From contig JAJEKV010000020.1 in assembly GCA_021234155.1 (NCBI GenBank), positions 1,909,275 to 1,973,274 of the forward strand: DNA of 64,000 nucleotides. Direction: 5' to 3'. The stretch's first letter is position 1. Each line of letters begins with the position of its first letter. Positions 14,290 to 60,755 of this stretch are shown here, piece after piece. The DNA comes from Isoetes taiwanensis. Lineage: Eukaryota > Streptophyta > Lycopodiopsida > Isoetales > Isoetaceae. The notes under the pieces are model-generated. The model ran no database searches and was not told the origin of the DNA. It saw only the letters and a program-made list of their open reading frames with translations. Both the position numbers and the translations under genes were made by a program.

Positions 14290-14294
14290 TCGAT

Positions 14295-15952
14295 GTGACG
14301 TTTCAAGTATTTATACGGTATACGTATAAATATATTGACACGTCACCCAGTATAGATACGCCACCATGGGGTATGGTAACCTAGGGGGTTGACCTAAAAG
14401 GGATTAAATTAGCTATGATCATTAAGGATAATAACCTATAATTAAGGAATTAATAATTAAAAAGGATAATTAAGCTAATTATGGTTTGGGAAGGCGCCAC
14501 CTGGCCAAACTCGATTGGCCAGCATAGTGAATGCTACTTTGATCCATTAAGGTGGATCACCACCCCCATATCAACCATAATTGACCAAGAGGAGTTGAGC
14601 GCCTACTTACCTTTGCCAAGCTGAGCGCCACCTTTACCCAGCTGAGCGCCACCCTTGCCTAGTACTTGTACCTGTGTAACCAGAGCTGAGCATCGAGTCC
14701 CAGAAGGATGGAGGCACCAAACGACCAAACGATAACGGGTCCAGCAGGAATACAGGTGGGTGGTTGTGTAGCTTGGGAATTCTATGGTAGCGCCCTGTTG
14801 GGCACTTGTTGTGTTGTTTTGTCTGTTCTCTCTGTGTTTTACTCGTAGGAACTAACCCTTGATTGTAAAGGTAAGTTCTCTTTATATTCTGATTCTTGTT
14901 TTGCTCTCAAAGGATGGATTGATAGTTCTTTGCATAGTCTTACTCTGGAAATGGGGGAACTAAGGGGGGTAGAGACCTCTGAGCTCATGTACGCTAGTAT
15001 GCTCCTAGATAGAGCCCTGTAATATTCCCATTAGATGCGGCCTGTGTACAAGAGACCACCGGGTCGTAGATGCTATGGTCTGGCTTAGCACCAGAGAAGG
15101 GACACAGTGGTGAAGTGGGGGTGGGGTCTTGCACGAACATAAAAGGCTCCTGAGACTCCTACAGTGGGCTAGGCCTGATAGCCGGTCACGTAGAGGGCCG
15201 GGTATGGGTTTGACACTCCCTGGGTGTAGAGGTGTGATCCGTATGGAGCATCTTGCACTTTGAGTAGATTTAGGGTGAGTAAGTTGGGTACAGATGCGGG
15301 GGTCGCTGATGCGGCATGTATTCTCTAGCTCACCCATGGAAGCACTGTGATCCTGGAAGGGGACGCTTCCCCGACCTGCCTCATCGGACCGGGGCGTCAT
15401 GAACCCTGGAGTAGACTCAAAAGGGTGATACCTTGAGTTTGTGTCTCCGAAAGGCTATAGCGAAGCCATAGCGTGGATCGACCCATCTGCAAAGTGTGCA
15501 TAGGAGGGGCGGATGGAGTGGACAACCCTAGCCGATGTTCTATGCCAGCCAACGCCATGCCAAGACTCGGTCTGCTGATCTCTTGAGGCCCAGCCGTCAG
15601 TCGATCCTCACTGGAGTCTGAGCCGGGGTAGACCCTGTGGTTTGGGGTGTTTTCTTAGTTTTAGATGCATATTCTTTGCCATTGGTATTTGGATGGATGC
15701 GCCACTCTTCGTGGTGGTTATTTATATATATAATTTATGCTGTGTGCTAACCCTTGTATTCATGCTTCCGCGACGTAGGAGCCCATCGAAGGCGTGGGCC
15801 GAATGACACCTCCGTGCCCTTCACTCGAGCATCTCTACGTAGATGGCCCGGGTCAGACGGAGGGCCCTGCTCATGGCGAGATGGTCGCCATGGGAGGGGA
15901 AAGTCCCCGTATGTATACGGCTGGGGGTCGTATATATTCAGGGAGCGTCACA
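14295..15952 (+). repeat. E1 5' LTR
   Basis: It starts TGTGACGTTTCAAG and ends GGGAGCGTCACA, and matches 31145-32825 nearly base for base with small indels. The palindromic TATACGGTATACGTATA phrase lies close to the start. Confidence 0.95.
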
Positions 15953-15953
15953 G

Positions 15954-16460: not shown

Positions 16461-16474
16461 TACCCTTCAACGCC

Positions 16475-20308: not shown

Positions 20309-20310
20309 AC

Positions 20311-22043: not shown

Positions 22044-23380
22044 ATGCCGCGTTTCAAACTTACTGTGGACCTGAAGAAGATGAACGAGTTCCAACTGTTT
22101 AGCGCGCTAGTCGACCATCTTGCAGACGACAGCCCTACAGTTGATACCGTTCTTGATCTCTTCGTGAAGCACTTCATTGAGGGTCGAAGAATTCCTTACC
22201 CTATCTTCCACTTCAATGAGCGCTTCCTTATGAAGTTGAACGAGGCAGGTGAGGCCTACACCCTTGTGGAGCAGCCTGACCGTGCATGGGCCGTGGTTAA
22301 GTTCTATCCCTCAGCAGGACCAGATGAGGACCCCGCCGAGCTTATCCGGAATGAGGCTCAAAGGATCATGCACCTTGCCAGGGTGGAAGACTTGCAGCAA
22401 ATAGCTAGTGCCCCACCAGAAGCACGGAAGAACCGCTTCTACTACCTGGGTAAGGGCTGGGTACTTATGTACCAAGATTGTTATAATCTCCCTACCTTCT
22501 CTTGGAATGAAGACCTCAACAGCTTCATTTTTGAGAACGTCCCGCCTAGTTTTGACCAAGCCCGCATGGACCTCGTGCAAGATGATATGCGAGCACGGCC
22601 GGACATGTACCACACGGAGACAAAGAAGCCCGGGCTGCTGAGAGAGAGAGGCTTCGCAAGGAAGAGGAGGATGGCCAAAGTCAGCAGAGCGGGAACCAAC
22701 AGGTGGATCAGCAGGACGACCAGCAGAATCCAGATGTTGATCAGCAGCAGAACCCGGATGTTGGACAACAGCAGGATCAAGCTGTGGGTTAGAACGCTGA
22801 CCCCCAGGGAGACCAAAACATGGGGGATAATGTGGACCAACCGGGAGCTTCGAGCGGCCCTAAGAATAGGAAGGCAACGGAGTGGGGTAACCGGACGTTG
22901 AAGAGAAAGAGTACCAAACCCGTGAAGAGTGGGGTGAACTATAAGACCCAACTGCAGAAGGATGCCACTATAGCCAAGAAGACATCGGCTCAGAGACGGG
23001 AGCAGATCGTTCAGCGGGCACAACATCCAACAACCGGCGGAAAATCCATTCCGTCGCTCAAGGCAACCCTCAAGCCACGGAAGCCCCACAGATTTCGACC
23101 GGGCACAGTAGCACTTCGGGAGATACGTAAGTATCAGAAGTCTACTGAGCCATTGATTCGTCGGCTTTCCTTCCAACGGCTTGTACGGGAAATTGCCCAG
23201 GAATTTAAAACCGATTTGAGGTTCCAAGCCTTTGCAATCCTCGCACTCCAGGAGGCTGCCGAGGCTTACCTCATCGAGATTTTGAGCGACGCCAACCTTT
23301 GCACCATACACGCAAAGAGGGTCACCATCATGCCCAAGGACCTCCAGCTAGCACGATGGATCCGAGGGGAGTTCCGGTGA
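22044..23380 (+). pseudogene. E1 ORF-A: unknown domain fused to histone H3-like fold
   Basis: The ORF starts at ATG 22044 (context GCGACCATGCC). An unknown domain of about 190 residues (MPRFKLTVDLKKMNEFQLF and onward) is followed by a Gln/Asp-rich repetitive linker and a basic region. The C-terminus is almost a whole histone H3 from a TGGK motif (K14 region) through [38 protein letters not shown] and LARWIRG. By eye about three quarters of core residues match plant H3, and the CENP-A-type loop-1 insertion is absent. The histone part lies in the +2 frame (open from 22820). The N-terminal frame runs to 22901, so one frameshift near 22630 in a GAGAGA run and one TAG at about 22790 break the original fusion. 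The first H3 tail residues (ARTKQTARK) are not preserved. It replaces no known gag or pol function. Confidence 0.85.
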
Positions 23381-23623: not shown

Positions 23624-25014
23624 ATGGCTCGCCCAACCTTGCAGCAGTGGTATATGGACGGAGAGCATTGGGATCCTGCGGTTCCCTTTGATCTTCTTCA
23701 CCCCTACCTGCTCCAACAGGTAGATCTTATTTCTAACATGCAGGCACATCCGGATTACGCCGCCTTTCTTCAGTTTTACTGTGAAGAGATTGTACCTGCA
23801 TGTGTTTACAATGATGATGATGCGCAGCTCTATCTTGACTTCCACACCCTGCACCAGATGTTAGGGGGTGATGAGCATGCCCGGAATGTCGTCAAGGGCA
23901 TAAGGAGGCGGGGGACAGACCTCCCTATTGTTACAATAGATTGGGAAACTTGTTTTGAGGCCCGATTTGCACTGGCCATCATCATGGACGAGTACATTGA
24001 GGACGAGGAGATAGCTGCTGAGCATTCCTCGACGCCTGTACCTTCTGACCCGGAAGACGACGAAGTCGTCGACGAGCAGGATTTTGTAAGGTGGAAGGAA
24101 CTTGCCACTGAAGCCCCTGCCAGCCGACAGAAAGCCCTCAAGCTCGAAGGGCTAAACCTTCTTCCTACAGTACTCTTGAATAACCAAGAGTACCTGATTT
24201 TTGAGAACATTATGTGGGTCTACCGCGTCATTACTGGGATCCGCCGCAAAAAGATAGAGGTCCTCTATGACCTTGCTGAGAGTATTGCCAAGATGACTTC
24301 ATTGACTTTACCACACCGGTTGTGAATCCCTCACCAGTCGAGCACTTATTGGTATATCAGCCCGAAGAACAAGAGCCCGTTGAGACTCTTTTGTCACTTC
24401 GGCAGTTCTTATTGAGTGACACACCACAGCCTCCAGAGGAGCACTTTGCAGCTCAGACGCGGCCCCATCTCGCAGACCCGCCCTTGCAAATCACCATGGG
24501 AGAGGTGGATCAGGACGAGGAAGATCTTTGGGACACCAAGGTCAGCCTTAGGGATGACAAGGAAGACGAAGAGGAGGAGAAGATCCCCGTGAACTTGGAA
24601 AAGGAAGCGGAGACCTCCAGAGATCCTCAGATTAGGGCAATGGGCAACCATGTGCCCCGGTTCTTTCTCTCAGCCTTTCGGCAAGGAGAGGTGTTGTTCT
24701 TCTCCAAGAACCTAGGGCCTTCTTCTGCAACTTCTTGGTGGGTGCTCCGAGTCATATCCACTTCAGCGGGCCATAAGAAGATTGATTATCACGCCACCAC
24801 TATTACTTTGGTCCGTAGGGATTTGGCTATAGCAGCATTGGGGGATGTGGCGGGCTGCACTAATATGCGCCTCCTTGTGGCGGCACCTTTGGCCACTTGC
24901 TTGCCACCGGAGGCAGCATCTCGAGCCGCCCTCTCCGCTAGCCCCAGTACCACTTTGATGCGTTATCGTCCACCTCCTCAACCTATGGACGAAGAGGAGG
25001 GACCTAGTTCCTAG
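23624..25014 (+). pseudogene. E1 ORF-B: unknown acidic protein, one frameshift
   Basis: It starts at ATG 23624 (MARPTLQQWYMDGEHWDP). The first frame stops at 24325. The next frame is open across the junction and reads FIDFTTPVVNPSPVEHLLVY, so a 1-bp loss near 24292 probably split one protein of about 460 aa. It is rich in Asp/Glu, with acidic tracts near 24000-24070 and 24540-24600, and has no motif I recognise. It lies between the H3-like ORF and gag, on the same strand. It may be an accessory protein of this retrotransposon lineage. Confidence 0.5.
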
Positions 25015-25697: not shown

Positions 25698-25919
25698 GTC
25701 CAGACCCCTCAGTTCTGTTTTGCTATGTTTCAGTATGACTAAGGAAGTGCCCATGTATAAGATCCACCTGTGTATTATATAACCTTAAGTTGATAACTAC
25801 CTTTTGTGTGAAGTTCTTCAATGTAACAGTTATTTGACTCATAATTAAAATCTTTCCTTTCGTTTTTTTATTTACTCTTTCTTTGGTACTACCCAAAACG
25901 ATCTTGTTTGTAAAACTTG

Positions 25920-27257
25920 ATGTTGCTGTTGCTCAATATAGACGGTGCACGCAACGCCGCCTGGCAGACACCCTCAAATGCCAGTAGATTAACACCAGAA
26001 CAGGAACTGATGTTAATAAAAAGACAGTTAGGCGGGTTACAGGCTTATGTGTTGCATGCCAACCCACCACAGCATGTACAAGAAGACGGACCGGAGTTAC
26101 CTCCGCTACCGCCTAGTCCACCTACACAGCAGCCGTCCCCACCTGAAACTAGCCCTATACCTACACAGAGGAGGCCCCATTCTAAACGTCGTCGGAGTTC
26201 CTCTAGGGACAGTGTCACCTCCTCACAATCAGCCACTTCTGTGTCTTCTGAATCGTCGGTATCATCCGGTGACCATGCAAAGCGCCGGGACAAGGAGTAC
26301 CGCAAGACGGTTGATACAGCCATAACTAGTATATGGAAGAATAGGAAACTGGCCCAGTTTGATGGGAAATCTAGAGGCGGATTGAATGCCGAGTCCTGGT
26401 TGGACGAAATGAAGGAATTTAGGAAGTCCTATGGCATGACAGAAAAGGATACAGGGAAGGTTGCCACCACCAACCTTACAGGAGCTGCCCGTATTTGGTG
26501 GAAGGGCTATGCTAGAGCCAAGCATCTGGATAGAAGCAGGTGCAAGTTTAAGAAGTTTGCTAAAGCTTTTAAGTCGCATTATGTGCCTCGTGCGCATAAA
26601 TGCCAGCAAATTCAGACCTTTTACAGGTTAGAGAAGAAGGGTATGTCGGTTCAGGCTTACACGGATGAGTTTATGCGCTTGAGACTGTATGTACCAGGTA
26701 TGAATGAAAAGAGGGCAGTGGAAGGCTATATTGAAGGATTGGCCCCATCAATCAAACGAATGGTTAAGGCCATAGACCCGAAATCAGTGGCAGAGGCGGA
26801 GGCTAAAGCATTGAGCCTCGAGGAGGACACACCAAGGAACCAGTATCAGCGTCCTGCTCCTTATTCGCAGCCACGGCCGTCCACACCTTACAAACCCCGC
26901 TCGCCAAGTCCGGGGCCCTCTCAGCAGAACTCTTATGGCCGCCAGGAAAGGAAAGTCACCTTCAGCACGCTCGATAAACAGAACAATGTCGATAAGGAAG
27001 TTCGGAACCTCTTACAGTCTATTCCTAAAGAGGCCCGAGAACAGCTCCGCCGAGATAAGGCATGCTACAGGTGTATGCGGCCCGGGCACTTCATGCAGAA
27101 TTGTCCTTATGTCACGCAGACTGCCCAGCTGGCCATGGCCGACCTCGATTGGGACGATCTTGAGTCAACACTACCTGTCGAGGAGGACGCTCCCGAGTAT
27201 ATTCACGGTGCGTCTCATATCCTTGCAGCTATAGAAACCGGCAATGCTGAAAGTTAG
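25920..27257 (+). CDS. E1 Gag (capsid and zinc knuckle)
   Basis: Structural Gag protein that forms the particle and packages the RNA. A Pro/Ser-rich N-terminus and an SSRDSVTSSQ-type serine tract are followed by the retrotransposon gag domain (WLDEMKEFRKSYGM, GAARIWWKGYARAKHLDR, FYRLEKKGMSVQAYTDEFMR). One CCHC knuckle, CYRCMRPGHFMQNC, lies near the end (about 27060-27105). The frame ends at a TAG (27255-27257). The same frame continues open into the protease, so gag and pol were probably one polyprotein interrupted by a single in-frame stop. Confidence 0.9.
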   Translation: MLLLLNIDGARNAAWQTPSNASRLTPEQELMLIKRQLGGLQAYVLHANPPQHVQEDGPELPPLPPSPPTQQPSPPETSPIPTQRRPHSKRRRSSSRDSVTSSQSATSVSSESSVSSGDHAKRRDKEYRKTVDTAITSIWKNRKLAQFDGKSRGGLNAESWLDEMKEFRKSYGMTEKDTGKVATTNLTGAARIWWKGYARAKHLDRSRCKFKKFAKAFKSHYVPRAHKCQQIQTFYRLEKKGMSVQAYTDEFMRLRLYVPGMNEKRAVEGYIEGLAPSIKRMVKAIDPKSVAEAEAKALSLEEDTPRNQYQRPAPYSQPRPSTPYKPRSPSPGPSQQNSYGRQERKVTFSTLDKQNNVDKEVRNLLQSIPKEAREQLRRDKACYRCMRPGHFMQNCPYVTQTAQLAMADLDWDDLESTLPVEEDAPEYIHGASHILAAIETGNAES

Positions 27258-28890
27258 CCTGCTGTCATTTCCACCATAGGTCAAGTAGACAGTAAGCCTT
27301 TTGTAATTCTTATGGATACGGGAAGTACCCATAATTTTGCTTCTCCTAGAATGGCCCAGGTCTTACAGCTGGAAACCTTGAGGTCCCGACCGAGGCCTGT
27401 CACTCTAGCCAGTGGTAGGGTCAGACATACTCATGGCCGTCGCATCAATCTTAAGATGCAGTTGTCAGGTGCACCAGTTGTTATGGGTGCCGAGTTGATG
27501 GATGTTGGCAAATACGACCTCATTGTTGGTATGGAATTCTTGGCATCTGCAAAGGCCAACATAGACTGCGAGAAACGGGAAGTTACCTTCAACGCAGCTA
27601 ATGGAGCCCGTGTAACTATAAAAGGTGAACCATTCAAACCTATCATGCAGTCTATGTCCATCAGACAGTTAGATAAAGTTATACGCAAGGAAAAGCTCCT
27701 CTGCGTCCTCAGACTTGCCTCCATTGAGTCAGATAATAAGCAGAACCGTATGAGTCCCCCAGAGTTGGCAGAGCTTAAGAAGCAGCTTCAGGAGTTATTA
27801 AACCTAGGTTTCATTCGACCTAGTGTTTCGCCTTTTGGCGCTCCTATTCTTTTTGTTAAGAAAAAATATGGCTCCTTGAGGATGTGTATTGATTATCGGC
27901 AACTCAACAAGCATACCATCAAGAATCGCTATGCTTTGCCTAGAGCAGATGATCTAATGGATCAGTTGCAAGGGGCCAAGTATTTCTCAAAGATTGATCT
28001 ACGCTCCGGATACCATCCGATAAGGATTAAAGAGGAGGACATCCATAAATCTGCTTTTCGCACTAGGTATGGGCATTATGAGTTTACAGTTATGCCTTTT
28101 GGATTAACTAATGCCCCAGCAACTTTCATGCGACTAATGAATGATGTCTTCCGACAATACCTGGATGATTTTGTTGTCATTTTTTTTTACGACATTCTTA
28201 TCTATAGTAAGACCCTAGAGGAGCATGAGAAAAATCTTAGAATGGCCCTACAAAAGCTAAGACGTCATCAGCTCTTTGCCAAGTTCTCTAAGTGCAAGTT
28301 TGCCACTCCGAAGGTTGATTATTTGGGCCATGTCATCTCGGCAGAGGGAATTGCTACAGACCCAGCAAAGATAGAGGCCGTAAGGGAATGGCCTATTCCA
28401 GGAAATGTTTTCGAGGTCCGAAGTTTCCTGGGCTTAGCGGGATATTACCGGAAATTTGTAAAGGATTTTGCAAGGATTGCAGCACCCCTTACAAATCTTA
28501 CAAAGCATGAGAAGGTGAAGGATTGGATGGAGCACTGGAATGCAAAGGTTCAGGGAAGTTTCCAGCAGCTTAAAGATGCCTTAACGTCAGTACCAGTTCT
28601 CACATTGCCTGACCCTGAGAAGGATAAACTAGTGGCGACAGATGCCAGTAAGATTGCCACCGGTGGAGTCCTAATGCAGGAGGGGAGAGTTATTGCCTAT
28701 GATTCAAAGAAAATGAATGAAAACGGAGCAACGATACCCTACCCATGACCAGGAATTGTTAGCCATTATCCGTGCCCTGCGGATATGGAGACACTACCTT
28801 CTTGGTAGAAGATTCCAGTTAGATACAGATCATCAAAGTCTCCGTTATTTATCCACCCAGCCGAATCTCAACCTCCGTCAGAGGAGATGA
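27258..28890 (+). pseudogene. E1 Pol part 1: protease, reverse transcriptase, RNase H
   Basis: In the Gag frame, the retropepsin motif [13 protein letters not shown] is at about 27305. It is followed by the reverse transcriptase ([34 protein letters not shown]) and RNase H ([16 protein letters not shown]). The RT catalytic box, normally IDDIL, reads FFYDIL: codon 28188-28190 is TAC, so the first Asp of the pair is Tyr. A frameshift near 28735 moves RNase H into another frame ([20 protein letters not shown]), and a TGA at about 28888 stands where Trp is usual. This copy cannot make active RT. Confidence 0.92.
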
Positions 28891-30566
28891 ATGGAATTTC
28901 TGGAGGAATATGATTTTGAGATTATGTATAAGCCTGGCAAGCACAATGTGGTTGCGGATGCATTGTCACGCCATCCCTTGGTAACGCGAACCCATTGTAA
29001 TGCAATTTCTACACTCACCAGTGAGTTTGGGAAGCAGATAGAATGGACCTTGGCCACGGATCCCGAGTTCTGTGAAGTTTGGGATAGTTTGGCTAAGGAA
29101 GCTCGCACAGATAAGGAGCGTGAAGCTTTCTGTTCGTATAAGAAAGAGGGCAACTTGTTATATTACAAAGACAAGTTGTGTGTAACTGAGACTTCGGGAG
29201 TGCGTAAGCTAATCCTCCACGACACGCACAACAGCCCTATAGCTGGCCATGCAGGGTTTATGAAGACCTACTTTAAGATTCGCTCCAGCTATTTCTGGCC
29301 TTCGATGAAAAAGGACATTGCCAGATACATTAAGCAGTGTCAGGTGTGTCAGCAAACCAAAGCTGAGCAGTTAAGGATTCCAGGCGAGTTGCAACCTCTG
29401 GATGTGCCCAACGCCAAATGGGAAGTGATAACCATGGATTTCATTGTGGCCCTTCCACGTACTCTCCGTGGATATGATGCCTTAATGGTAGTGGTCGACA
29501 AATTGTCCAAAATGGCGCATTTCTTGCCATGTCGTACCACAGATACAGCCTTTGATACTGCTCTGCTTTTTGCCAAGGAGATCTTCAGGTTACACGGAAT
29601 GCCACGAGTTATTATATCCGACAGGGATCCCAAATTTGTAAGTGCATTCTGGAAAGATTTCTTTGCCAGGTCATCCAGACCAAGCTTGCTATGAGTACAG
29701 CGTATCATCCTCAAACAGATGGTCAGACAGAACGTACCAATCGCATTATAGAGGATATGCTGCGAAGTTATGTGTGGAGTAAGCAATCACAATGGGCTGA
29801 CTATATTTATCTGGTCGAGTTCGCCTACAACAGCATGAAGCAGGAGTCTTCCAGAATGTCTCCCTTTATGATAAATTATGGCTACCAATGTCTAACTCCA
29901 GATACATGGCACAACCCCGTTTCGAAAGTGGAGGTTTCTCAACAACTCCTCCTGGAGATGCAAGCTCTGGTCGAAGAAGTTCGTGGTTACTTGTTAGCTG
30001 CACGCAGTCGTCAAAAGAGTGTAGCCGATAAGCACAGAACCCCACGCGTTTTCCAGGTGGGTGAATCAGTTTGGCTTAAGATTAAGGTCAAACAAGCCAA
30101 GCTTAAGATTGGCAACTGCAAGAAGTTGGCACCCAAATGGGCGGGACCGTTCAAAATTATTGAGCGTGTTGGAGAACAGGCATATCGCTTGGATTTGCCG
30201 CCCCGCTTGAAGATCCACAAGGTCTTTCACGTGAGTCTTCTGAAACAACACACCCCTGATCCAGAGGAGGTTTTGGATACCCCAACCCTCCTAGAAATGA
30301 CAGAGGAGCAGCTGGAAATAGTGCCTGAAGCTCTTCTTGATCGTGCTTATAAACAAACCAGAAGGACTCAAATGTTGCAATACTTGGTTAAGTGGAAGCA
30401 CTTACCAGTTGAGGATGCTACTTGGGTGATGAAGATAGACCTTGACAAGCACTATCCGGACTTCATGCGGGAATCTCAAGGCCGCACCATCAACGATGCT
30501 ATCAACCCCGCAGCCGGCGGTAAGCTTGAAAGCTTGATTGCCAAGAGTAGCGCTCCACAGGGGTAG
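28891..30566 (+). pseudogene. E1 Pol part 2: RNase H end, integrase, chromodomain
   Basis: It continues with the RNase H end (PGKHNVVADALSRHP), then integrase with its zinc-binding CQVCQQTK and catalytic residues in ITMDFIVALP, IISDRDPKF and DGQTERTN (D, D, E all present). A frameshift near 29670 separates the second Asp from the Glu. The C-terminus (about 30350-30470) carries a chromodomain: QYLVKWKHLPVEDATWV. Chromodomains in this clade recognise methylated histone H3 or related heterochromatin and bias integration. The final stop is at 30566. Confidence 0.92.
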
Positions 30567-31144: not shown

Positions 31145-32825
31145 TGTGACGTTCCAAGTATTTATACGGTATACGTATAAATATATTGACACGTCACCCA
31201 GTATAGATACGCCACCATGGGGTATGGTAACCTAGGGGGTTGACCTAAAAGGGATTAAATTAGCTATGCTAATTTAACCATTAAGGATAATAACCTATAA
31301 TTAAGGAATTAATAATTAAAAAGGATAATTAAGCTAATTATAGTTTGGGAAGGCGCCACCTGGCCAAACTCGATTGGCCAGCATGGTGAATGCTACTTTG
31401 ATCCATTAAGGTGGATCACCACCCCCATATCAACCATAATTGACCAAGAGGAGCTGAGCGCCTACTTACCTTTGCCAAGCTGAGCGCCACCTTTACCCAG
31501 CTGAGCGCCACCCTTGCCTAGTATTTGTACCTGTGTAACCAGAGCTGAGCATCGAGTCCCAGAAGGATGGAGGCACCAAACGATAACGGGTCCAGCAGGA
31601 ATACAGGTGGGTGGTTAGTGTAGCTTGGGAATTCTAGGGTAGCGCCCCCGTTGGGCACTTGTTGTGTTGTTTTGTCTGTTCTCTCTGTGTTTTACTCGTA
31701 GGAACTAACCCTTGATTGTAAAGGTAAGTTCTCTTTATATTCTGATTCTGGTTTTGCTCTCAAAGGATAGATTGATAGTTCTTTGCATAGTCTGATAGTT
31801 CTTTGCATAGTCTTACTCTGGAAATGGGGGAACTAAGGGGGGTAGAGACCTATGAGCTCATGTACGCTAGTATGCTCCTAGATAGAACCCTGTAATATTC
31901 CCATTAGATGCGGCCTGTGTACAAGAGACCACCGGGTCGTAGTTGCTATGGTCTGGCTTAGCACCAGAGAAGGGACACAGTGGTGAAGTGGGGGTGGGGT
32001 CTTGCACGAACATAAAAGGCTCCTGAGACTCCTACAGTGGGCTAGGCCTGATAGCCGGTCACGTAGAGGGCCAGGTATGGGTTTGACACTCCCTGGGTGT
32101 AGAGGTGTGATCCGTATGGAGCATCTTGCACTTTGAGTAGATTTAGGGTGAGTAAGTTGGGTACGGATGCGGGGGTCGCTGATGCGGCACGTATTCTCTA
32201 GCTCACCCATGGAACCACTGTGATCCTGGAAGGGGACGCTTCCCCGACCTGCCTCATCGGACCGGGGCGTCATGAACCCTGGAGTAGACTCAAAAGGGTG
32301 ATACCTTGAGTTTGCGTCTCCGGAAGGCTATAGCGAAGCCATAGCGTGGATCGATCCATCTGCAAAGTGTGCACAGGAGGGGCGGATGGAGTGGACAACC
32401 CTAGTCGATGTTCTATGCCAGCCAACGCCATGCCAAGACTCGGTCTGCTGATCTCTTGAGGCCCAGCCGTCAGGCGATCCTCACTGGAGTCTGAGCCGGG
32501 GTAGACCCTGTGGTTTGGGGTGTTTTCTTAGTTTTAGATGCATATTCTTTGCCGTTGGTATTTGGATGGATGCGCCACCCCTCGTGGTGGTTATTTATAT
32601 ATATAATTTATGTTGTGTCCTAACCCTTGTATTCATGCTTCTGCGACGTAGGAGCCCATCGAAGGCGTGGGCCGAATGACACCTCTGTGCCCTTCACTCG
32701 AGCATCTCTACGTAGATGGCCCAGGTCAGACGGAGGGCCCTGCTCATGGCGAGATGGTTGCCATGGGAGGGGAAAGTCCCCGTATGTATACGGCCAGGGG
32801 TCGTATATATTCAGGGAGCGTCACA
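31145..32825 (+). repeat. E1 3' LTR
   Basis: It starts TGTGACGTTCCAAG and ends GGGAGCGTCACA, followed by the GTCGA duplication. It has a small internal duplication (GATAGTTCTTTGCATAGTCT) at about 31770-31810 not seen in the 5' copy. Confidence 0.95.
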
Positions 32826-32830
32826 GTCGA

Positions 32831-35662: not shown

Positions 35663-35665
35663 TTT

Positions 35666-35682: not shown

Positions 35683-35705
35683 TTTTCACCTGGAAATTGA
35701 ACTCC

Positions 35706-37171: not shown

Positions 37172-37540
37172 TTGCAACAACATTTCTCAGAGCCTTACCC
37201 GAAAGCACATAATCAAGATCCGGGTGCTTTTATTTGTAGTGCTACTATAGGTACCTCCCATTTAGATAAGGTTTTGTTGGATGGAGGTTCCTCCCTAAAT
37301 GTCATGCCTTATCATGTTATGAAGACACTGAATCTCAAAGTAGAAGACAACACTTCTATTGTTCTAAAATCCTTTTCCAATGCTAAGGTAGTACCAAAGG
37401 GAGTGGTGAGAAATGTGTCTGCATTATCTGGGGGGAATCATTGTCTTAGCTACATTTGTGGTTGTTGACTTTGAGAATATTAATCATGCTAACATTTATG
37501 ATTTATTATTGGGAAGAAGGTGGATGAAAACAAAGAGATG
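37172..37540 (+). pseudogene. E3 aspartic protease
   Basis: The retropepsin-like motif KVLLDGGSSLNVMPYHVMKTL (about 37270-37330; DGGS as active-site loop) is followed by VVPKGVVRNVSAL. After a frameshift, the usual FVVVDF...YDLLLGR-type end appears at about 37460-37520. Confidence 0.8.
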
Positions 37541-37739
37541 CTAGGCCTATATGGTCCGAAGGTATTTGCACTATTTCAAATGGAGCAACTTCCATTAAAC
37601 CGTAAACCAAACTGACCCTACTCGCTAACATTAGATTCATAGATGTGGATATTTTGCGTGAAGAAGAGTTAGGAGTTTACGGTTTAGGTCTAGATGTTGA
37701 TATAAATGCGTAAGTTATCAACTTTGCTCATGTAGAGTT

Positions 37740-38190
37740 CCCCGATCCAAAAGAAAACAAGGCCTACCTTTGGTTTGATGGAGGTATGTCTAAGAAATTA
37801 GGGATTGCTTCTTCCTCACGCTATTCTCAAGGGATGCATCTTTAAGTCGATGACTAAGATAGGGAGAATTCATCCTAATATTTCTTCTAATGCAGCAGAA
37901 TATAGGGCCCTCATTGCAGGCCTACAGAAAGCAAGGTTCATGAATATCTCCCATATTGTTATCTATGGAGACTCACAACTTGTTTGCAAAACAGATTTTG
38001 GGAGAATACCAAACAAAACATCAAGATATGGAGGATCTGAACACACAAGCTCGAGAATTGCTAACTTTTTTTTGATCATTGGGAAATTTATCATATTCCA
38101 AGGTCTAAAAACTTTGAGGCTGATTCTTTGTGCAGAAAACACTCTTAGAGCATCTCTCTCGAGGGAGCTATCAAGGAAGATGTCCTAGAT
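37740..38190 (+). pseudogene. E3 extra RNase H (archaeal-type), upstream of RT
   Basis: In shifting frames the region shows all four RNase H catalytic positions: WFDGGMSKKLGIA (about 37770), NAAEYRALIAGLQKA (about 37893), HIVIYGDSQLV (about 37955) and HIPRSKNFEADSL (about 38085-38130). This is the additional RNase H type known from Tat/Ogre elements. Here it lies between the protease and the reverse transcriptase, whereas in the arrangement I know it follows the first RNase H. Confidence 0.75.
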
Positions 38191-39400
38191 GAAGATGAAC
38201 TCTCTCGGTTTCATCCTATCTTGACCATCAACCTAGCACAAGAGGAATCACACAAAGAACTTGAAGTACACAAAGGAGGTATGTCCAGGACTTTGCAAAT
38301 GGGAGATCTATATGATGAAGATTGCAAAGGTAAAATGATTAAGTACTTTGAAGATTGGGTGGATGTTTTTGCATGGGAATATTCAGAATTGAAAGGGGTT
38401 GATAGGAGCATTTGTGAGTTTGAGATAAAAGTTCGTGAAGATACTAAACCCGTCATGCGAGAGGTTGAGAAGAATTAATTCCTCACTTTTAGATCTTATC
38501 AAGCGGAATTATTCAAAATGCAGGGTCAGTTTGATAGTTGACATTGTGAACCCTTCTTGGGTTTCTTGTATTGTTCCAGTTCTAAAAAAAGAATGGTTCT
38601 CTAAGAATATGTGTGGATTATAGAGATCTAAATAAAGCTACTCACAAAGATTGTTACCCTTTGCCTTTTTGGAAGAAATACTTTATGCAAGTTGGTCGGC
38701 AAGTCTATGTACTCATTTTTGGATGGTTTCTCTGGTTTTAATCAGATTAGCATCAAAATGGAAGATCACCAAAGACATCCTTCATTACTCCATGGGGAAC
38801 TTATGCAATGAAAAGGATGCCTTTTGGCTTAATGAATGCTCCTGCTACATTTCGTAGAGAGCTATGGATCTTGCTTTTGCAAACATGACTCCCCGAAAGC
38901 AATTCGAGTTTTATCTTGATGATTTATGCTTAGGTACTGGTACAAGTGATCATATTTCGAGCTAACAAGGATATTTATATTGTGCGCACAACCGAGTTAA
39001 TCTAAACCCAAAGAAGTGCATCTTTTTGGCATCCAAAGGCCAGCTCTTAGGCCATGAGGTTTTACGCTAAAAGGCCTTCAAGTAGTGAAGAGAAGATCAT
39101 AGCTTTAAAAAGCTTCAAACACCCGGACAATTAAAGAAGTCAAGGGATTTATGGGAATGACCTCTTTCTTAAGAGTGTATGTGCCTAATTTCTCTCACCT
39201 TATTAGTCCTATCTCTAAGTTGACTAGAGTAGGCCAAGTTAGTAAAAGAGAAAGTAAATATAGGCCTGTTTGTTTGGACTGATGAGTGTGAAAAAGCTTT
39301 TTGTAGATCATAGAGGCTATTTGCCATTCTACACTTTTAAAAACTCCAGACCTTTCATTACCATTTAAAGTTTACATAACTATCACTAAAAAGGCTCTTT
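38191..39400 (+). pseudogene. E3 reverse transcriptase
   Basis: The start is clear: YFEDWVDVFAWEYSELKGVD with KPVMREVEK (about 38345-38470). Fragmentary RT blocks follow, including KRMPFGLMNAPATF across frames at about 38808-38850 and a DDLCLGT box near 38920. The next blocks (LNPKKCIF, then the EVKGFMGM-type connection) are visible in alternating frames to about 39260. Many frameshifts. Confidence 0.8.
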
Positions 39401-39850
39401 GGAGTTGCCATTTTGCGGGATAGACACCCTATTGCTTTTGCAAGCAAACAATGGTCTCAAACTGAAGAGAAGTATGCTAAGATAGAAAGGAGTGCTTTGC
39501 TCTCTCATCTTTTTGATCGAGAGACAGGGGTCATCTTTTACAAAAATCCCAAGCCACTATCTACATGCAAACAGAAACCCATGCCCTTTTTGTATGGTAA
39601 GAAATTAGAAAAACCTAAACTTCATAGGTGGGCTTGTAGGCTTCAATCTTATGATTTAAAGGTAAAGGTTATTCATGTATTGAACAACCCGAGTTTATAC
39701 TTGCCTCACGCCTACTTTGAACATGAGGAGTTGATACAAGAAGAAGAAATGACTAACCTTGTTGTAAATGAACAGACTTGTCAACTATACCAGCTCAAGG
39801 TTGGCAACAACCTATTAGGAGGTTCCTTCAATGTCGGGAGATACCTTCCG
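39401..39850 (+). pseudogene. E3 RNase H and connection region
   Basis: One frame reads PIAFASKQWSQTEEKYAKIE, then KLHRWACRLQSYDLKVKVIH and a degraded LPHAYF where an AD-LSR motif would be. This is the classic Ty3/gypsy RNase H next to RT. Confidence 0.8.
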
Positions 39851-39879
39851 AATTTTCAAAAGCCAAGCTTACAAGTTTA

Positions 39880-41098
39880 AGTTAAAATGTTTGACTTACT
39901 CCTTGGTTGGTGACATCTTGTGCAAGGTAAATAGGGATGGTGTACTCTTAAGATGTGTTGATGAAGATGAAGCTGCCTGGTACTTGCTAAAAATCACAAA
40001 GGTGTTTGTGGTGGTCATTTTGCAGCGTGATACACAACCGCCAAGAAAATATTGAGGTCTCAGTTATTTCGGCCTCATTTATTTAAAGATTGTTATGATA
40101 TTATAAAGACTTGTCATCAATGCCAGATCTTTGGCAAAAGAATCTTGCATCCTGCTCCTCTTACAGGAATTGTCTCCCCTGGTCCATTTCAAGTTTGGGG
40201 ATTGGACTATGTTGGCCCTATCAATCCCCCATCCTCCCAAAGATGAATACATTGTTGTGGCTACAGATCTGTTCACTAAGTGGTCGAGCAAAGACCCTTG
40301 AGGAAAGCAAATGCCCATACTACAGCTAGATTTTTGCATGAGAATATTTGCTCTAGGTTTGGCATTCCCTTTAAAATTTTGACTGATAGAGGCTCTACTT
40401 TTATTAATGAGGTGATTAATTTTCTTGTTTCAAGCCTCAAGATCAAGCATGTGAAAAGCTCAGCCTATTATCCTCAAGGTAATGGCCAAGCTGAGTCTAC
40501 TAACAAAGTGCTTAAGGGTATTTTGCAGAAAACTGTTTGCCAAAACCAAAGGGATTGGCATTTGAAATTATATGATGCTCTTTGGGCTCATAGAATTACT
40601 TCTAAAGCAGCTACTAATGCTTCACCTTTCAGTTTGGTATATGGAGTAGAGGCTGTCATTCCAGTCGAGTTAGAGATACCTTCTTTAAGGATGGCACTCA
40701 AGCTTGAGTTGGAATTTTCTGAAGCCTTGAAGCACAGGTATGAAGTTCTGTTAAAATTAGATGAAGAAAGGTTTGTTGCAGAGAATTACAACTTGCTGAA
40801 GAAGGCTAAGAGTGCAGCAGCTTTCAAGGCTACTCACAAATTACAAGACAAGTTTGCACCTATGGAATTAGTTTTAAAGTGGAATGCTACAGATGAAGGA
40901 AAGCTTTCAAAGTTTGAAAATCCCTGGGAAGGTCCCTATCAGATTTTAGGAGATGCTGGCTGCTCATCTTATAGGTTGGCTGATCTTGGTACAGGATTAG
41001 AGCTGCCAAATCCCATTAATATTCAACACCTTAAAAGATATTGGCCTCAAAGATGCCCGCTTGAGCCTCTTCACTTCTCAGATAAGCATTTGATCTAG
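39880..41098 (+). pseudogene. E3 integrase
   Basis: The zinc-binding part (CHQCQIFGKRI) is at about 40110. The catalytic core has D in WGLDYVGPI (about 40200), D in ILTDRGSTFINE (about 40375) and E in GNGQAESTNKVLKG (about 40490). The C-terminal part (40280-41098 open) reads KFENPWEGPYQI and NIQHLKRYWP, with no chromodomain. Frameshifts near 40050 and 40245 separate the parts. Confidence 0.85.
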
Positions 41099-41674
41099 CT
41101 TAGAATAGGTTAGTTTATAATTTCAAAGTTGAGGTTTTAATATTTCTTTTGATTAGCATATTTCCTTTGAGGTTTAATAGTTTGTTTCTTTTAGGCTGCA
41201 GGGATGTGTCCACAGGAGATAAGACTTTGATTATTACCTACTAATGAGTTCTATGTTGTCATGACAGGACCATTTGTTAAAACATTTCATCCGTCTTCTA
41301 AACTGGCCTATTCTTCATAAGACCTTGCTTCTCCATTGGAGTTTTAGAGTGCTATCCATATATAAGTTTCCACATCTTGCTTGGCACTCATGCTAACCTT
41401 GATTTACTGTCATATGCAAGTTCATTCTTTTCTCCTCCATTTTCATCTGCCTATAAGTTGCCTTACATCCCATTTCAGCCTTCTATCCTTTTATTTTCAT
41501 TCCCTACAATGCTCTGCACCACATTTCCACCACAGCAGAGTTCATCTCACACTCATACCACTCACTTTCATTATTCTACATCATTCTGTCACCTGCACCA
41601 GTATTTGAAGATCCTCAGTCTAAATTTACATCTGTTAGGCTGAGGGGACCAGCCTATTCTTTCCTTTGAGGAGA
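41099..41674 (+). other. E3 3' untranslated region and polypurine tract
   Basis: No gene is evident. Purine-rich stretches GGCTGAGGGGACC (about 41638) and TTTGAGGAGA (41665-41674) precede the 3' LTR; the latter abuts it and is the likely plus-strand primer. Confidence 0.6.
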
Positions 41675-43992
41675 TGTTGCCCATTTCTGGCAACATGGAC
41701 CAGCATCTATGTATCAAAACCTTTGTTTCATCTATATTTCCTCTAAGGAAAAGTTTCAGGCTATTGTAATCCCATTAGAGTTTGGAAGACATTTGACCAA
41801 GTTTGGAAGACATTGGGGATCTCCTTTTATAGCCTAATCTTTCCCTTGAGGTAAAACACCTTCTAGACACATTCCCATTTGTTTAACATTTTCCTTTGAT
41901 TTGAAGATCAGGCAAAGGCTATAGCAAGTTTATCAAGGAAGCACAAGATTTTTTACCAAAGCTCAACCTTATGAAGATTGCTTGAGTTGCATTAGTAGTT
42001 TGAAGTCACACACATGAGGATGCCATCTTGGAAGTGAAATGTGCTCTTATTCTAGCCTTGAAGTTTGGAAGACCCTTATAGAAGTTTGGAAGACCCTTAG
42101 GCTTTGAGCAAACGTATTTTCACTATGAGGTATGATTTGAGCATTAGAGACAATCTGAGATGAAATCAAGTGCTACAGAGGTACCCATCTTGTCTTCATT
42201 CCATATCCACCTTTTTATGTCCTATGAACCTTTTATAACCTTTCTTTCACCCTTTTTTCCACTTTTGAGACCTTTTCCCATCTTTTTCCCATGACTTTTT
42301 CACCATCCCTATGTTGCAATATTCATTGACCATGGGTCAAAATGGACAAAAATTCAAATGTTTCAGTTTGACTTGAAAACCTTCTAGATGTAAAGCTTGG
42401 CAAAAAAGAGATAACTTGGCCTTTTTAAATTTGAAAAAAACCCTTGGGAAGGCCTTCAAAATTGGATTCTTGGGATGCGTGCCAAAAAAATAAAAAAACC
42501 TATTCTAGCCTATCTACCCTATGTATTTCCACCTCACCCCCCCATTTCCATCTCATTTCCACGTGGCAGCAGGGCGTGGGGGCCAGACACGGGCTGGGTG
42601 TCCCCTCTGCGTGGCACGCACAGTTAATAGTTGAGTCAGCACTTTTCCTTATATACCTGAGCCTCCAGAACCACTCCGGCCTGTGGGATATATCATCCTT
42701 AAGAATTTTCGATGAACCCTAAGAAATAGGGGAACCTGCTAAATCCGGCCAATTCGTGCCATAATTTGATTGAATCCCGCCAATTTTCTCCCGAAATCAG
42801 CTCCTGAACCTTTTCCGAGACCTCGGTGATCCTCTGTGGCACTTGATTTGATAGAAATTGCTCAATTTGGGCCTTAAATCACTCGGCCGAGCTAGTTTTG
42901 TGAAAAAAACAGTTCTTAAACCAGCATTCCAGATCAAATCGGGACGCCCCTCAGAGATATACCTCTGTGATTTTGGCGCACTGAATATTTTGATATCATT
43001 TTGCTCTGCTCTGCTCAGATTCCAGCTCTACTTCGTTCGAGATTGAAGTCCCGGTTCGTTGTGACCTGTTCAGCATCGAAGCACCTCGATTGCAAACTTA
43101 AATAATCATTCCATATTACTTCATTGGTATTTTTGAAGCCCTCGAAAGACTCATACAGTCTTGAAATTGCTCTCAAGCATTATTACTCAAGCATTATTAT
43201 TTTCGAAACTTTGGTAATACCCTGTTGACATTATCAACTTTCTGTACCACATTGCTATAATGCATAGTCTTTGCCTGAAAAATCGTTTTCATCATTGTAC
43301 ATCCATTTTTTGTAATTCTGCATTGCTCTTTTAAAAAAGCAAAAAACCAAAAACAAGACCAAAAACACTTACTCAGAGATTATATCTTCTTCAGATAGTT
43401 GTATTTCATCCTTATAGGAATCCTAGAAACCTATACATTCGGAGAAAACATATAAAAAGATTTCTTTTCATAATCATTCTGAGTTTGTTCTTTTCTTGAG
43501 GTTTTGTTTACTTTTACGGAAAACTAAAACATCCTTTTGCTATTCAAACCTTTTGCACGTGATCTAGAGGCTATTTTGAAGTTGTCTGCACAGATCCCAA
43601 CCCAAAATTTCCCATCAAACTCCATCTGCAAAATTTGGCTCTCTGTTTTGGCACTGGCCAACTTTTTGACCTGCCTTTGACCTCGCTTTTCTTGACCCTC
43701 CCTTATTCAAATCAAGTCAAATCTTCTCCACCATTTTCCTCTGCTTGTTGACCACTTATAACACCAATCAGATCTTCAAAATCTCTCAAGGTGTGTCTGC
43801 AAGTTCAGTTTTTGCTCTGACAGTTTTTTCAGTTTCAAGGACTCTAGTGATTTTGAAAAAACTAGCACTTCAAAAATGAATTTTCTGGTTTCATATGACA
43901 AGGATTGATCACCCTAAGTGATCTGGAGGTTCTAACCATTCTGTTTAAGATTCCTTTGAGGTTAGGCTAAAATTCCAGGTTTTAGGCTAACA
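41675..43992 (+). repeat. E3 3' LTR
   Basis: Second copy of the E3 LTR, ending GGCTAACA before the GTTAG duplication. It contains about 100 bp at 43253-43350 not present in the 5' copy. Confidence 0.93.
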
Positions 43993-57330: not shown

Positions 57331-58910
57331 TGTGACGTTCCAGCATAATATACGCTCCTAATACGTATATTATACTGCCACGTCACACGTACATGTCATA
57401 GATGACATGTACTTGAGAGCCGAAGAACGTTGCACCTAGGGGCCAAGAGTGCACCTAGGGGGGCAACCTCGAATGTTGTGCATGTTAATAAAACATACAC
57501 AACAAAAACCCCCTTGAACCCCATTTTCCAAATGGCATGAACCCATTTGGCCAAATGGTTAACCTAACCTAAAAAGGGTCTATATAAGGGCTAAAACCCT
57601 AAACCCTAGCTCTCTTTTCAATTTCGCATTTAGGGTTTTCTAGAGCTTCCTTCCCATCCTCGCATTTAGGGTTCTCTTGGGCCATTTCGGCCAAGGCAGG
57701 ACTCCAATCCGCATTGCTGAGCTCCGAAAAGCCGGATTTGCCCAACAGATTACCGATTCGCAGCCATCTCCAGCAAGATCAAGATCATGGACGCCTTCCG
57801 AGGATCAGCGGCGGGTCAAGGAGCAGGTATCTAGTTGTTCTATTGTGCAAATCCATCTTTGGGCATGGCAATAGGCCGATTTGGTGTGTTAGATCAACTC
57901 TAAAAGCCTTATAGATCCCGAGGCCCCCTAACTAAGGAATCTAACTCTGTTGTGTAGATAATTTCAGTTCCATGATGTTGGATGTATTTCATTCTGTGAC
58001 TTCCATGTCTTGGGAAGGGGGGTAGAGACTTAAAGTTGTGTAGAAAATGATCCTAGTTAGCACCAGTAGTTCCCAATTACTGCGGCCCGTGCACAGGAGC
58101 CCGCCTGGTTGTGGGTGGAGGGATCCGACCGGCTGACAAGGAAGAACATGTCCCTACACAGACTGACCCCTCTGGTGTGTAAGGCCTACCGGGGGTCTCT
58201 GCAGGCTAGGCTTAATGGCTTGTCGCTGCGTGTGGGCAAGGCATGAGCTCGACACTCGTGGGGTGATGCGTCACCTTCCAGTGAGTTGAAGTCGAATAAG
58301 AGCAGTGGCTCTCTAACCGCCTGTGAAGGGCATGGTTGCTTCTGGAGGGGAGGAGACTTCCCTCCTGCCTCATCGGGGCTGGGGAGATGCAACCGAGTAG
58401 TAGTAGCCCCTCTGGCTATTCACCCGGCAGGCTACGGTTAGGTCCCAAAGCTTCTCAACCTACTCTGCAAAGTGTGTACGGAGGGGCGGATGGTGTGGAC
58501 TACCCTCAGCCATGTTCTATGCCAGCCAAATCCATTGCCATGAATTCTGTCTGCAATGACCTCTGGAGGCCCAAGCCGTCAGTCATCCCCCTTGAGTCTG
58601 AGCCTTGGGTAGGACTCCCCCTTTCAGTTATTGTTTATGTTGATGTTGTTATCTCTTGTGATGTTGACGCTATGTTCACCCTACGAGGTGGTTGTATTTA
58701 TGTATGTTGTTAGTTTGTGCTCATGTTTGTTTATTCGCGCTTCCGCAGATAGGTCGACCCGATGGAAGACGGGTGAATGACACATCCACTCTTCCCTTGC
58801 TGGCTCATTCCACTGGGAGTGGAGTCAGGTGGATGGCCCCCGGTCTGCCTGCCGGGGAAGGCTCCTCCTTCAGATACGATGTGTGCATCGTATAGGGAGT
58901 AGACGTCACA
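57331..58910 (+). repeat. E2 5' LTR
   Basis: It starts TGTGACGTTCCAGCATAATA and ends GGAGTAGACGTCACA, directly followed by G and the primer site. No second copy is present in the window. Homology to the E1 LTR is visible through much of its 3' half (about 58440-58620). Confidence 0.85.
57581..57610 (+). promoter_or_regulatory. E2 LTR promoter: TATA box and telo-boxes
   Basis: TATATAA (57581-57587) is followed within 6 bp by AAACCCTAAACCCTAG (57594-57609), two overlapping telo-box motifs of the kind found near start sites of plant growth-related genes. Likely core promoter of the LTR. Confidence 0.6.
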
Positions 58911-58911: not shown

Positions 58912-58923
58912 TGGTATCAGAGC
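58912..58923 (+). other. E2 primer-binding site (initiator tRNA-Met)
   Basis: TGGTATCAGAGC lies one base after the LTR, identical to the E1 site. Confidence 0.92.
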
Positions 58924-59125
58924 ATGATCTTGGTAGACCAAGATCGAGCACTGACCATTTTCCCTAGGACTAACAGTAGACTTCCAGTCTTGGGAACAAC
59001 ATCCCAAGCAAGAACCTCGAAAATTGGGAAAAAATTTTCTCAATTGTAGTGTAGTGGTAAGGCAATGCTAGCAATAGAGATAAATTTTAGATTTAGACAA
59101 ACTTAAATTCGCCAAAAATAAGGAA

Positions 59126-59410
59126 CCCCTCACAGAGTGCGCCCAGGCCACTTAGGATTCTAGTCCTAACTGTCTCTCGCGCACTGTGTGAGTGGTTGGC
59201 CCAACTAGACCCAGTTAGATGCATAATTGAGCTAATCAAATGAGGTAATTCGGCTTAATGCTTAAGTTCTAGCTAGTTTTGCATGTTAAAACACTAATAA
59301 AACCCTTGTAAATCGAAAAATGGGACCCAAAAAGAGGCAACCCCTCACAGAGTGCGTCCAGGCCACTTAGGACCATATTCCTAACTAGTTCTCGCGCACT
59401 GTGTGAGTGG
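59126..59410 (+). repeat. Two hairpin-forming repeats in the E2 leader
   Basis: A ~70-nt unit occurs at 59126-59195 and 59341-59410. Each starts CCCCTCACAGAGTGCG and ends CGCGCACTGTGTGAGTGG, which pair to form a stem of about 15 bp. The middle (CAGGCCACTTAGGA) is also conserved. Compensated spacing and conservation suggest RNA structure in the leader. Confidence 0.7.
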
Positions 59411-59521
59411 TAGGCACTTTCTGGCTGATTAAATCCAATGTTCTCCTCATATCTTCACTAATGCCCTAGATTTTTTTCCCCCATATGGAATTGCAGGTCC
59501 AAACCCTAAATCTTCCCTTCC

Positions 59522-59545
59522 TATAAATAGAAAGTTAGGGTTCCC
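59522..59545 (+). promoter_or_regulatory. Possible internal promoter before the H3-tail ORF
   Basis: TATAAATAG (59522-59530) is followed by GTTAGGGTT (about 59536-59544), a reverse telo-box-like motif, about 100 bp before the ORF start. The layout resembles that before ORF-B of E1. Confidence 0.45.
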
Positions 59546-59630: not shown

Positions 59631-60755
59631 ATGGCTCGAACGAAGCAGACCGCCCGCAAGGTTGTGCCTGATGGATACGTGAGCGCCCAAGAGCAGGCCG
59701 TTCGACAGAAGGCCCGACCATGATGCCGAAGAGGCAGGTAGATCAACCTAATCCTAATGCCGAAGAGGAGGAACAGGTAGATCAACCTAATCCTAACGCC
59801 GAAGAGGAGGAACAGGTGAATCAGCCTAACCCTAATACCGAAGAAGGAAGAACAGCCTAAGATCTCGAGGCATCGGAGGAGGTCAAAGTTGATATGGACG
59901 CGGCCGAGGAGTTGAAGAGGGAGCTGGAGAGAGAAATTTTCGGAGACGGCACTAACACAGAGCAAGCGCACAAGAAAGGAAAGAGAAAAAGGGAGGAAGG
60001 CGAGAAGAAGAAAACCAAGGAGGAGCGCAGCAAAGAAAAGGAGGAGCGGCGCAAGAAGAAAGAAGAAAAGAAACAGAGGAAGGAGGAAAAGAAGAAGCGC
60101 AGGGAAGAGCGGGAGAGAGTGAGAGCGGAGAAGGGGAAGGATCCAGAGCGACCGGCAGGGAAACCGAAAAAGAAGAAGACTCCGGCCAAGGGAGTAACGA
60201 TCCAGGAGCCAGACCCGGAGAAACCACCATCCTCATCCGACACAGAGTCGGATAGGGAAGCTAGAAGACCCGACCCCACCGGAGGCTCCGACCCCCTCAA
60301 ACACAAATACGGAGGAGGAGGACGCTAGTAGCAAGCGCACCCCATACCCTAGGTGGCCGCCAAGCATCCCAAATGACAATACAAAGAAGCCGAAACCACA
60401 AAGGGAGTCCTACGCGCTCAAGCAAGACCTCAAGTACCGGAAGGAGCTGAAAGAGTATAATTCGTTCATGAAAATGTACGAAGAATACTCTAAGTATTAC
60501 GAGGAGCATAAGGTGACTTTTGTGGAAGGAGGTCGGCCGACGAAGAAGAACACGCTCAAACCGCCACCTGAGAAACCAGAGCCACCGAAGAAACCAATGA
60601 AGAGACATGTGGACTCCAAGTTTTCGAGAGCGGCCAAGGAGATCAGGCATTTTCAGCAGAGCTACGGCTTCCTCATCCCTAGAGCGTCCTTTGCACGACT
60701 CACAAGGGAAATTTCAGTTGGATACCGACCACCAAAGCCTCTAATACATTTCTAG
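59631..60755 (+). pseudogene. E2 ORF: H3 tail mimic, charged linker and CENH3-like segment
   Basis: The ATG at 59631 begins MARTKQTARKVVPDGYV: residues 1-9 of mature histone H3 (ARTKQTARK, including K4 and K9) are exact, then Ser10 is lost. After a stop at 59721 the next frame continues with three ~36-bp repeats encoding QPNPNAEEEEQVD-like units. A long Lys/Glu-rich region (59894-60328) and a coiled-coil-like stretch KELKEYNSFMKMYEEYSKYY follow. The end (about 60620-60725) reads KEIRHFQQSYGFLIPRASFA and RLTREI. This matches the alpha-N/alpha-1 part of H3 and, through RHFQ and LIP.ASF, CENH3 in particular. The rest of the histone fold is missing: the frame stops at 60755. Three reading frames are used, so at least two indels have occurred since the ORF was intact. 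Confidence 0.8.

Follow-up and report, generated by a model that had tools for sequence, protein, structure and literature searches.

Two histone-bearing elements in the window

The window, by which we mean the whole stretch of 64,000 nucleotides of Isoetes taiwanensis DNA that was analysed, contains two LTR retrotransposons with a histone H3-like coding region, designated E1 and E2, both on the plus strand. The 5' LTR of E2 (57331..58910, TGTGACG...CGTCACA) was delimited by its boundary motifs and is homologous to a related locus, L044, from 57331 on; over 58464-58612 it is akin to the LTR of E1 (about 84%). An exact match to the primer binding site TGGTATCAGAGC, which we take to be of the plant initiator-methionine tRNA type, directly follows the LTR at 58912..58923. 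A 3' LTR of E2 was found neither in the window nor in the 2.6 kb that follow it.

The leader of E2 contains two copies of a hairpin or palindrome, one at 59112..59200 (RNA fold z -5.5; present in many copies of the element) and one at 59327..59415 (z -3.5). This imperfect palindrome of about 72-89 nt (CCCCTCACAGAGTGCG...CGCACTGTGTGAGTGGT) typically has two copies in the leader and as many as three behind the histone ORF, spaced about 194-215 nt apart, and was also observed at L012:838-1318, at L044:3738-4220, and in many other copies. There were 219 BLAST placements of at least 70 nt, a figure that includes palindromic doubles and a few overlapping loci. Covariation was observed in one of 13 pairs of the leader hairpin (covariation term -0.02); because the arms are almost invariant, an RNA structure and a DNA palindrome are indistinguishable here.

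The histone ORF of E2 starts about 720 bp past the 5' LTR. A TATA box had been placed at 59522 in an earlier sequence-only reading of this DNA, and TATAAA is present there (59522..59527), 109 nt upstream of the histone ATG, at a position shared by most relatives: 45 of 64 copies have TATAWA at -109 or -112, and 49 of 64 have any TATAWA within 200 nt upstream, against 14% of shuffled sequences.

The same reading had described 59631..60755 as a single ORF that starts with the exact H3 tail, continues through an acidic repetitive linker and a Lys/Glu-rich region, and ends like CENH3. The start codon and H3 residues 1-9 (ARTKQTARK) are indeed encoded exactly at 59631..59660, and behind them E2 has the acidic repeat VDQPNPNAEEEE, the Lys/Glu-rich stretch, and H3-like alphaN and alpha1 helices. 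The single frame did not hold: the window copy is broken by two frame changes, for which an intron was discounted as an alternative because relatives have an uninterrupted frame. Piece 1 (59631..59720, frame 0) contains the tail and a VVPDGYVSAQE segment; piece 2 (59735..60295, tblastn q40-221) lies in another frame and contains the acidic repeat and the Lys/Glu-rich insertion; piece 3 (60270..60713, tblastn q213-361) returns to frame 0 with a pre-fold segment and alphaN and alpha1 of H3. The Pfam Histone match of this truncated copy (E 9e-7) covers only positions 9-67 of the profile. DNA similarity to all four loci compared (L009, L044, L045, and L046) ends at 60714, inside the histone fold; thus, the final 13 amino acids, encoded in 60714..60755 (SVGYRPPKPLIHF), do not belong to the element, and the point at which the histone stops in this copy merely reflects its truncation.

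E1 (14294-32827) has LTRs at both ends (5', 14294..15953; 3', 31145..32827; 95.9% by BLAST, K2P 0.021) and a primer binding site at 15954. Its ORF1 (22044..23380), with one frameshift and one stop in the window copy, encodes an N-terminal domain (MPRFKLTVDLKK...) and an H3 fold. The H3 part (22820..23380) contains the whole histone fold and shares 81% identity with plant H3 (Pfam Histone, 9e-41; PDB Histone H3.3 chain, 9e-49). An ORF2 region follows (23624..25014), whose frames 23624-24322 and 24322-25011 gave no Pfam match. Domain matches then identified gag (Ty3 capsid, 25917..27257), protease and reverse transcriptase (27312..28748), and integrase with a C-terminal chromodomain in two ORFs (28891..30566). 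These parts are in the same order as in the E2-type elements. In a relative of E1, L101, the N-terminal domain and the H3 part form one open frame.

With the E1 histone as the query, all 150 scored places matched (of 8801 first-look candidates), so that E1-type matches number at least 150. Four E1-type folds were compared; they share 81-83% identity with H3 and cluster in a clade of their own. Among eight copies, some of them partial, dN/dS was 0.14 for the N-terminal domain and 0.11 for the H3 part. The ORFs of E1 and L101 start without ARTKQTARK and have another conserved domain instead, for which we found no relative in a set of 5.8 billion proteins.

Several other features were observed in the window. 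A minus-strand LTR element (16474-21976; LTR K2P 0.030; primer binding site at 20308, minus strand) is nested in the leader of E1, and a further LTR element (33452-43992) has LTRs about 98% identical (K2P 0.013) and a weak internal integrase match. An ORF piece at 10177-10734 on the minus strand matches the interferon-inducible GTPase family (IIGP, E 1.3e-17), which is unexpected in a plant. A SAC51 bHLH match was below its cut-off.

The E2-type family and its protein

We searched one genome of 1.66 Gb, from which all data described here were obtained. The 95-amino-acid histone end of E2 matched at 150 of 150 scored places with E of 4e-37 or less (E2 itself included; 6063 first-look candidates), so that E2-type matches also number at least 150. 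The 30-nt start of the E2 ORF, with up to three mismatches, occurred at 26 places in the genome, versus none for the reversed control. We opened 73 distinct E2-type loci, eight of which were reached via the 30-nt start pattern and 65 via the histone end only. A tail was called readable if at least five of its first eight residues were present, a criterion that favours conserved tails, and 65 of the 73 loci had a readable tail. The other eight (L018, L024, L027, L033, L050, L058, L060, and L072) were dropped before the tail was counted. An uninterrupted ORF from ATG to stop with the histone end, 379-421 amino acids long, was found in 18 of the 65 copies.

The element order in L011 and L012 is histone ORF, ORF2, gag, protease-reverse transcriptase, RNase H, and integrase; L012 extends from gag to integrase, and the integrase of L046 has a chromodomain. 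The E2-type histone ORF therefore belongs to a Ty3 chromovirus and lies between the 5' LTR and gag.

Other arrangements and subfamilies were also observed. Among six further start-pattern places, two were of E2 type and four (L088-L091) belonged to a further subfamily. In these four, of which about 700 nt were seen, MARTKQTARK leads into PSAQVLAAEQKLKDAEEKL-like sequence and a Lys/Glu-rich stretch. L011 has, on its minus strand (about 5917-4230), a histone-bearing ORF with a damaged MART start behind a primer binding site; its fold is 60% identical to H3, and its GGKPKKNQL stretch resembles GGKAPRKQL of H3. L044 and L045 (G000:C1080) are two histone ORFs separated by 7.9 kb; each has an LTR and a leader of its own, and no third LTR was seen in the 7.6 kb of L045. 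R2C, A7T, and I at residue 9 are present in both.

A plant H3 query gave 15 places among 150 scored that are 97-99% identical over all 136 residues (ten of them at 99%) and 135 places at 72-87%. The former look, by their identity, like the host's own H3 genes.

The intact E2-type protein consists of H3 residues 1-9 and an insertion of about 250-290 amino acids, after which H3 resumes at about residue 12 and continues to the end of alpha3. The insertion contains the acidic repeat, the Lys/Glu-rich stretch, and a pre-fold segment predicted to be helical. A profile built from 32 fold sequences, among them those of E1 and the window copy, aligned with H3 residues 13-134 and had ordinary H3 as its best match (PDB Histone H3.3 chain, 3e-39). 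In the profile alignment, the stretch GGRPTKKNTLKPPPEKP falls on H3 GGKAPRKQLATKAARKS, and H3 resumes at about the GGK motif (residues 12-14); a GGR motif is missing in some copies, e.g., L006. The N-terminal tail is therefore not contiguous as in canonical H3, with residues 1-9 separated by about 250-290 amino acids from the GGK-like region. In L030, Pfam Histone (9e-22) covers positions 11-118 of 122, including alpha1 to alpha3. An AlphaFold2 model gave the helix order alphaN-alpha1-alpha2-alpha3 at low confidence (mean pLDDT 61). The sequence behind the tail had been read as non-histone; this is wrong for the family, since the relatives carry the whole H3 fold. It is more apt to call the protein an H3 variant whose tail has a very large insertion than to call it a non-histone protein bearing a mimic peptide.

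Four residues that we take to form the H3-H3' interface are kept in most of the roughly 66-68 readable copies (C110 in 64, H113 in 60, R116 in 66, and D123 in 62). In nearly all copies S86-S87 is replaced by D-D and R63 by P, where the numbering of S87 in the chaperone-recognition motif is presumed. According to passages of one paper, S87 lies within such a motif (PMC9145170). Because of these replacements, normal chaperone handling and nucleosome deposition of the E2-type histone appear doubtful.

The E2-type fold is 47-55% identical to plant H3 and 50-55% identical to P0001, a database protein judged CENH3-like from its sequence. Outside this genome, the search of the 5.8-billion-protein set for relatives of the E2-type fold gave only this one protein, and none of 88 pattern stretches in viral contigs was a relative. 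A tree places P0001 together with E2-type sequences and those of the L011 subfamily (support 0.93). Loop 1 is longer in CENH3 than in H3. It is one residue longer in P0001, whereas that of the E2 type has the length of H3. The idea of a CENH3-like end is understandable for the truncated window copy, whose best PDB matches (E about 0.002) are cid and cnp1, both of them centromeric H3 proteins. For the family, the profile and loop 1 point to ordinary H3, while the tree and the nearly equal identities do not. A CENH3 origin is possible but not favoured, and targeting of centromeric chromatin, as had been proposed, would be weakly grounded.

Constraint on the tail and variation at residue 9

Pairwise dN/dS among 53 loci was 0.032 for residues 1-8, 0.18 for the linker, and 0.077 for the fold. 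We also counted changes by parsimony on a tree built from codons 181-421, which exclude the tail. On internal branches, residues 1-8 had 24 synonymous versus two nonsynonymous changes (binomial p 1e-11 against neutral sites), the linker 358 versus 437, and the fold 290 versus 86. Both nonsynonymous changes (R2C and A7T) are common to L035 and L037, a tandem pair 7.9 kb apart. Without the eight tail-baited loci (65 loci), three alternative trees gave 22-25 synonymous versus 0-2 nonsynonymous changes in residues 1-8. At the tips of the tree, 20-24 nonsynonymous changes fell in these residues, as expected of dead copies.

K4 is a lysine in all 65 copies (57 of 57 without the tail-baited loci), and both Lys codons are used. 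T3 and Q5 are each kept in 64 of the 65, R8 in 61, and R2 in 55. Altered tails in intact frames were found in L035 (R2C and A7T), L062 (A7T), L066 (A7V), and L081 (R8W). Residues 1-8 are the most constrained part of the protein and were under purifying selection during the spread of the family; the tail is selected as protein. The proposal of a conserved H3 tail in a retrotransposon protein was therefore borne out, both by its presence in most copies sampled and by the selection on it. The tail is neither confined to a single copy nor a recently inserted fragment of host H3. The latter is ruled out: the tail evolves together with a long-lived ORF, and the likely host H3 genes are separate. A selected H3-like N-terminus would suit a histone mimic, but the protein that carries it is itself a relative of H3.

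It had been expected that the first ten codons and the histone end would be kept while the linker drifted. Residues 1-8 and the fold behave in this way, but residue 9 varies: among the 65 copies it is K in 33, I in 22, M in seven, and V in three, whereas R, Q, E, N, and T do not occur there. The 18 intact ORFs have K in 11, I in three, M in three, and V in one. All three intact I copies (L035, L062, and L066) and one of the three M copies (L081) have a further change in residues 1-8; the other two M copies and the V copy have none. The codon for Ile-9 drifts synonymously among ATC, ATT, and ATA while Ile stays. Internal changes at residue 9 on the midpoint-rooted tree were I>K, I>M, and M>V. 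Their direction and number are uncertain, both because the root is arbitrary and because elements have probably recombined, as K-type tails occur inside I-type clades. At residue 10, V, T, or I is found, and never S.

It had also been suggested that the protein could be methylated like H3 and could compete for or recruit readers such as chromodomain proteins. Since 32 of the 65 copies have I, M, or V in place of K9, a general role by way of K9 methylation or chromodomain readers is not supported, and K9-centred mimicry in all copies is ruled out.

Possible roles of an element-encoded H3 variant

We consider the best reading to be an element-encoded H3 variant that acts on host chromatin through its N-terminus and K4, and hold it with moderate confidence. 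Removal of the initiator Met would expose a genuine H3 N-terminus (A1-R2-T3-K4). The protein would enter the nucleus, where its H3 fold would join or approach chromatin, and the tail would engage host machinery that writes or reads the state of the H3 N-terminus and K4. Such engagement could keep the chromatin of the element transcribable or guide new copies. The long charged insertion would separate the tail from the core and may be an acidic, chaperone-like spacer. For the nuclear action of the tail, K4 would be essential and K9 optional. Chiefly because residues 1-8 are so constrained and residue 9 is variable, a role of the N-terminus and K4 is preferred over K9 mimicry; a copy whose residue 9 is I, M, or V offers no lysine for methylation at that position and would not feed H3K9 silencing. 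The two E1-type ORF starts seen (E1 and L101) indicate that not every histone-bearing lineage depends on the tail, which weakens models based on the tail only.

The occurrence of I, M, and V at residue 9, also in seven intact ORFs (I in three, M in three, and V in one), with R, Q, E, N, and T absent and with Ile kept while its codon drifts, could indicate an inhibitor of H3K9 methylation. The tail would then be a decoy in the SET pocket, and the K9I and K9M forms would trap the enzyme, so that the element would block its own silencing. A K27M-like precedent is the inhibition of PRC2 by EZHIP, described in passages of PMC6513997; in the same passages, H3K27 methylation falls when position 27 of an H3-EZHIP fusion is Met or Ile, but not when it is Lys or Arg. 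According to passages of PMC5030085, the fission yeast methyltransferase is trapped when K9 of H3 is replaced by M. In the passages on K-to-M/I histones that we consulted, we found no test of K9I. The 22 I and seven M copies have Ile or Met at the target lysine, and by this analogy they resemble the known inhibitory histones. We nevertheless regard the inhibitor as rather unlikely: K9 is present in 33 copies, the changes of residue 9 on the tree are few and can be moved by recombination, every intact I copy and one of the three M copies also have a change in residues 1-8, and residue 10 is never the S of a normal substrate. A broader form, in which a captured H3 with a giant tail would be a chromatin weapon whose N-terminus engages the H3K4 machinery and whose K9I, K9M, and K9V forms block H3K9 methylation, is likewise a speculative analogy to which we give a low probability. 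If it were true, a mobile element would be using the oncohistone trick against transposon silencing.

The chromodomain in the integrase of this chromovirus, and the interface residues C110, H113, R116, and D123 kept in most copies, are consistent with a role in integration or nuclear tethering, in which the histone would bring the pre-integration complex to chromatin or pair with the integrase chromodomain. A chromodomain that reads methylated H3K9 would, however, want K9, which is absent from half of the copies, and we think tethering unlikely. An ORF that precedes gag and combines a Lys/Glu-rich insertion with a histone fold would also suit a structural nucleic-acid protein, the basic fold and the charged stretch condensing the RNA or cDNA of the element in the particle, with the tail as a leftover. 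A leftover should be the least constrained part, whereas residues 1-8 are the most constrained, which makes this role very improbable. The broken window copy and the fungal hAT-borne H3 copies, RIP-inactivated or possibly drifting according to passages of PMC6710886 and PMC3538342, would fit a host H3 captured passively and without function. Against this, every part tested is under purifying selection, divergent subfamilies contain intact ORFs, and the TATA box has a fixed position; we see hardly any chance of passive capture or of a chance match. A chance match of the tail is itself ruled out by the reversed-pattern control, which found nothing, together with the selection on residues 1-8.

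Transposon-borne H3, in fungal DNA transposons, and histones in viruses were already known. Among the matches listed in a search of the titles and abstract openings of open-licence literature, there was no report of an LTR retrotransposon with a histone ORF, and the word histone is absent from the main text, the part considered, of a review of additional plant LTR ORFs (PMC7264820). The present family is a natural series of H3 tails selected outside a host gene, in which K4 is fixed and K9 is free to become I, M, or V. With it, one can examine what part of the H3 N-terminus is required by a genomic parasite, and whether nature produces K-to-M/I histones as anti-silencing tools.

The nearest parallels are in fungi. 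As described in passages of PMC3538342, hAT DNA transposons of Pyrenophora tritici-repentis carry H3L proteins. Like the E2-type ORF, H3L is an H3-like ORF of a mobile element in tens of copies, with insertions in the N-terminal tail, and is neither H3 nor CenH3 completely. H3L differs in being the cargo of a DNA transposon, with 26 near-identical copies that are possibly drifting, whereas here an ORF of an LTR retrotransposon has many divergent copies with residues 1-8 under selection. In Pseudocercospora and its relatives, capture by hAT amplified H3 to hundreds of copies, as seen here, but all copies except the original are RIP-inactivated (passages of PMC6710886), unlike the intact ORFs under purifying selection in the present family.

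Parasites and host cells provide further comparisons. Bracovirus H4 (CpBV-H4 and CvBV-H4) is a parasite-encoded core histone that acts on host chromatin in a manner dependent on its N-terminal tail, according to passages of PMC5423620 and PMC9145170; it belongs to a polydnavirus with an animal host and its function is experimental, whereas the function of the element histone is inferred. EZHIP and the K-to-M/I histones have Met or Ile at the target lysine of an H3-like tail, as do part of the copies here (passages of PMC6513997 and PMC5030085), but EZHIP is the cell's own protein mimicking K27M, and inhibition by the element tail is putative. In orchids, an m6A demethylase ORF in a Ty3/Gypsy element (passages of PMC9289625) is, like the histone ORF, an extra domain captured and retained in a plant Ty3 element, although the domain is a different one.
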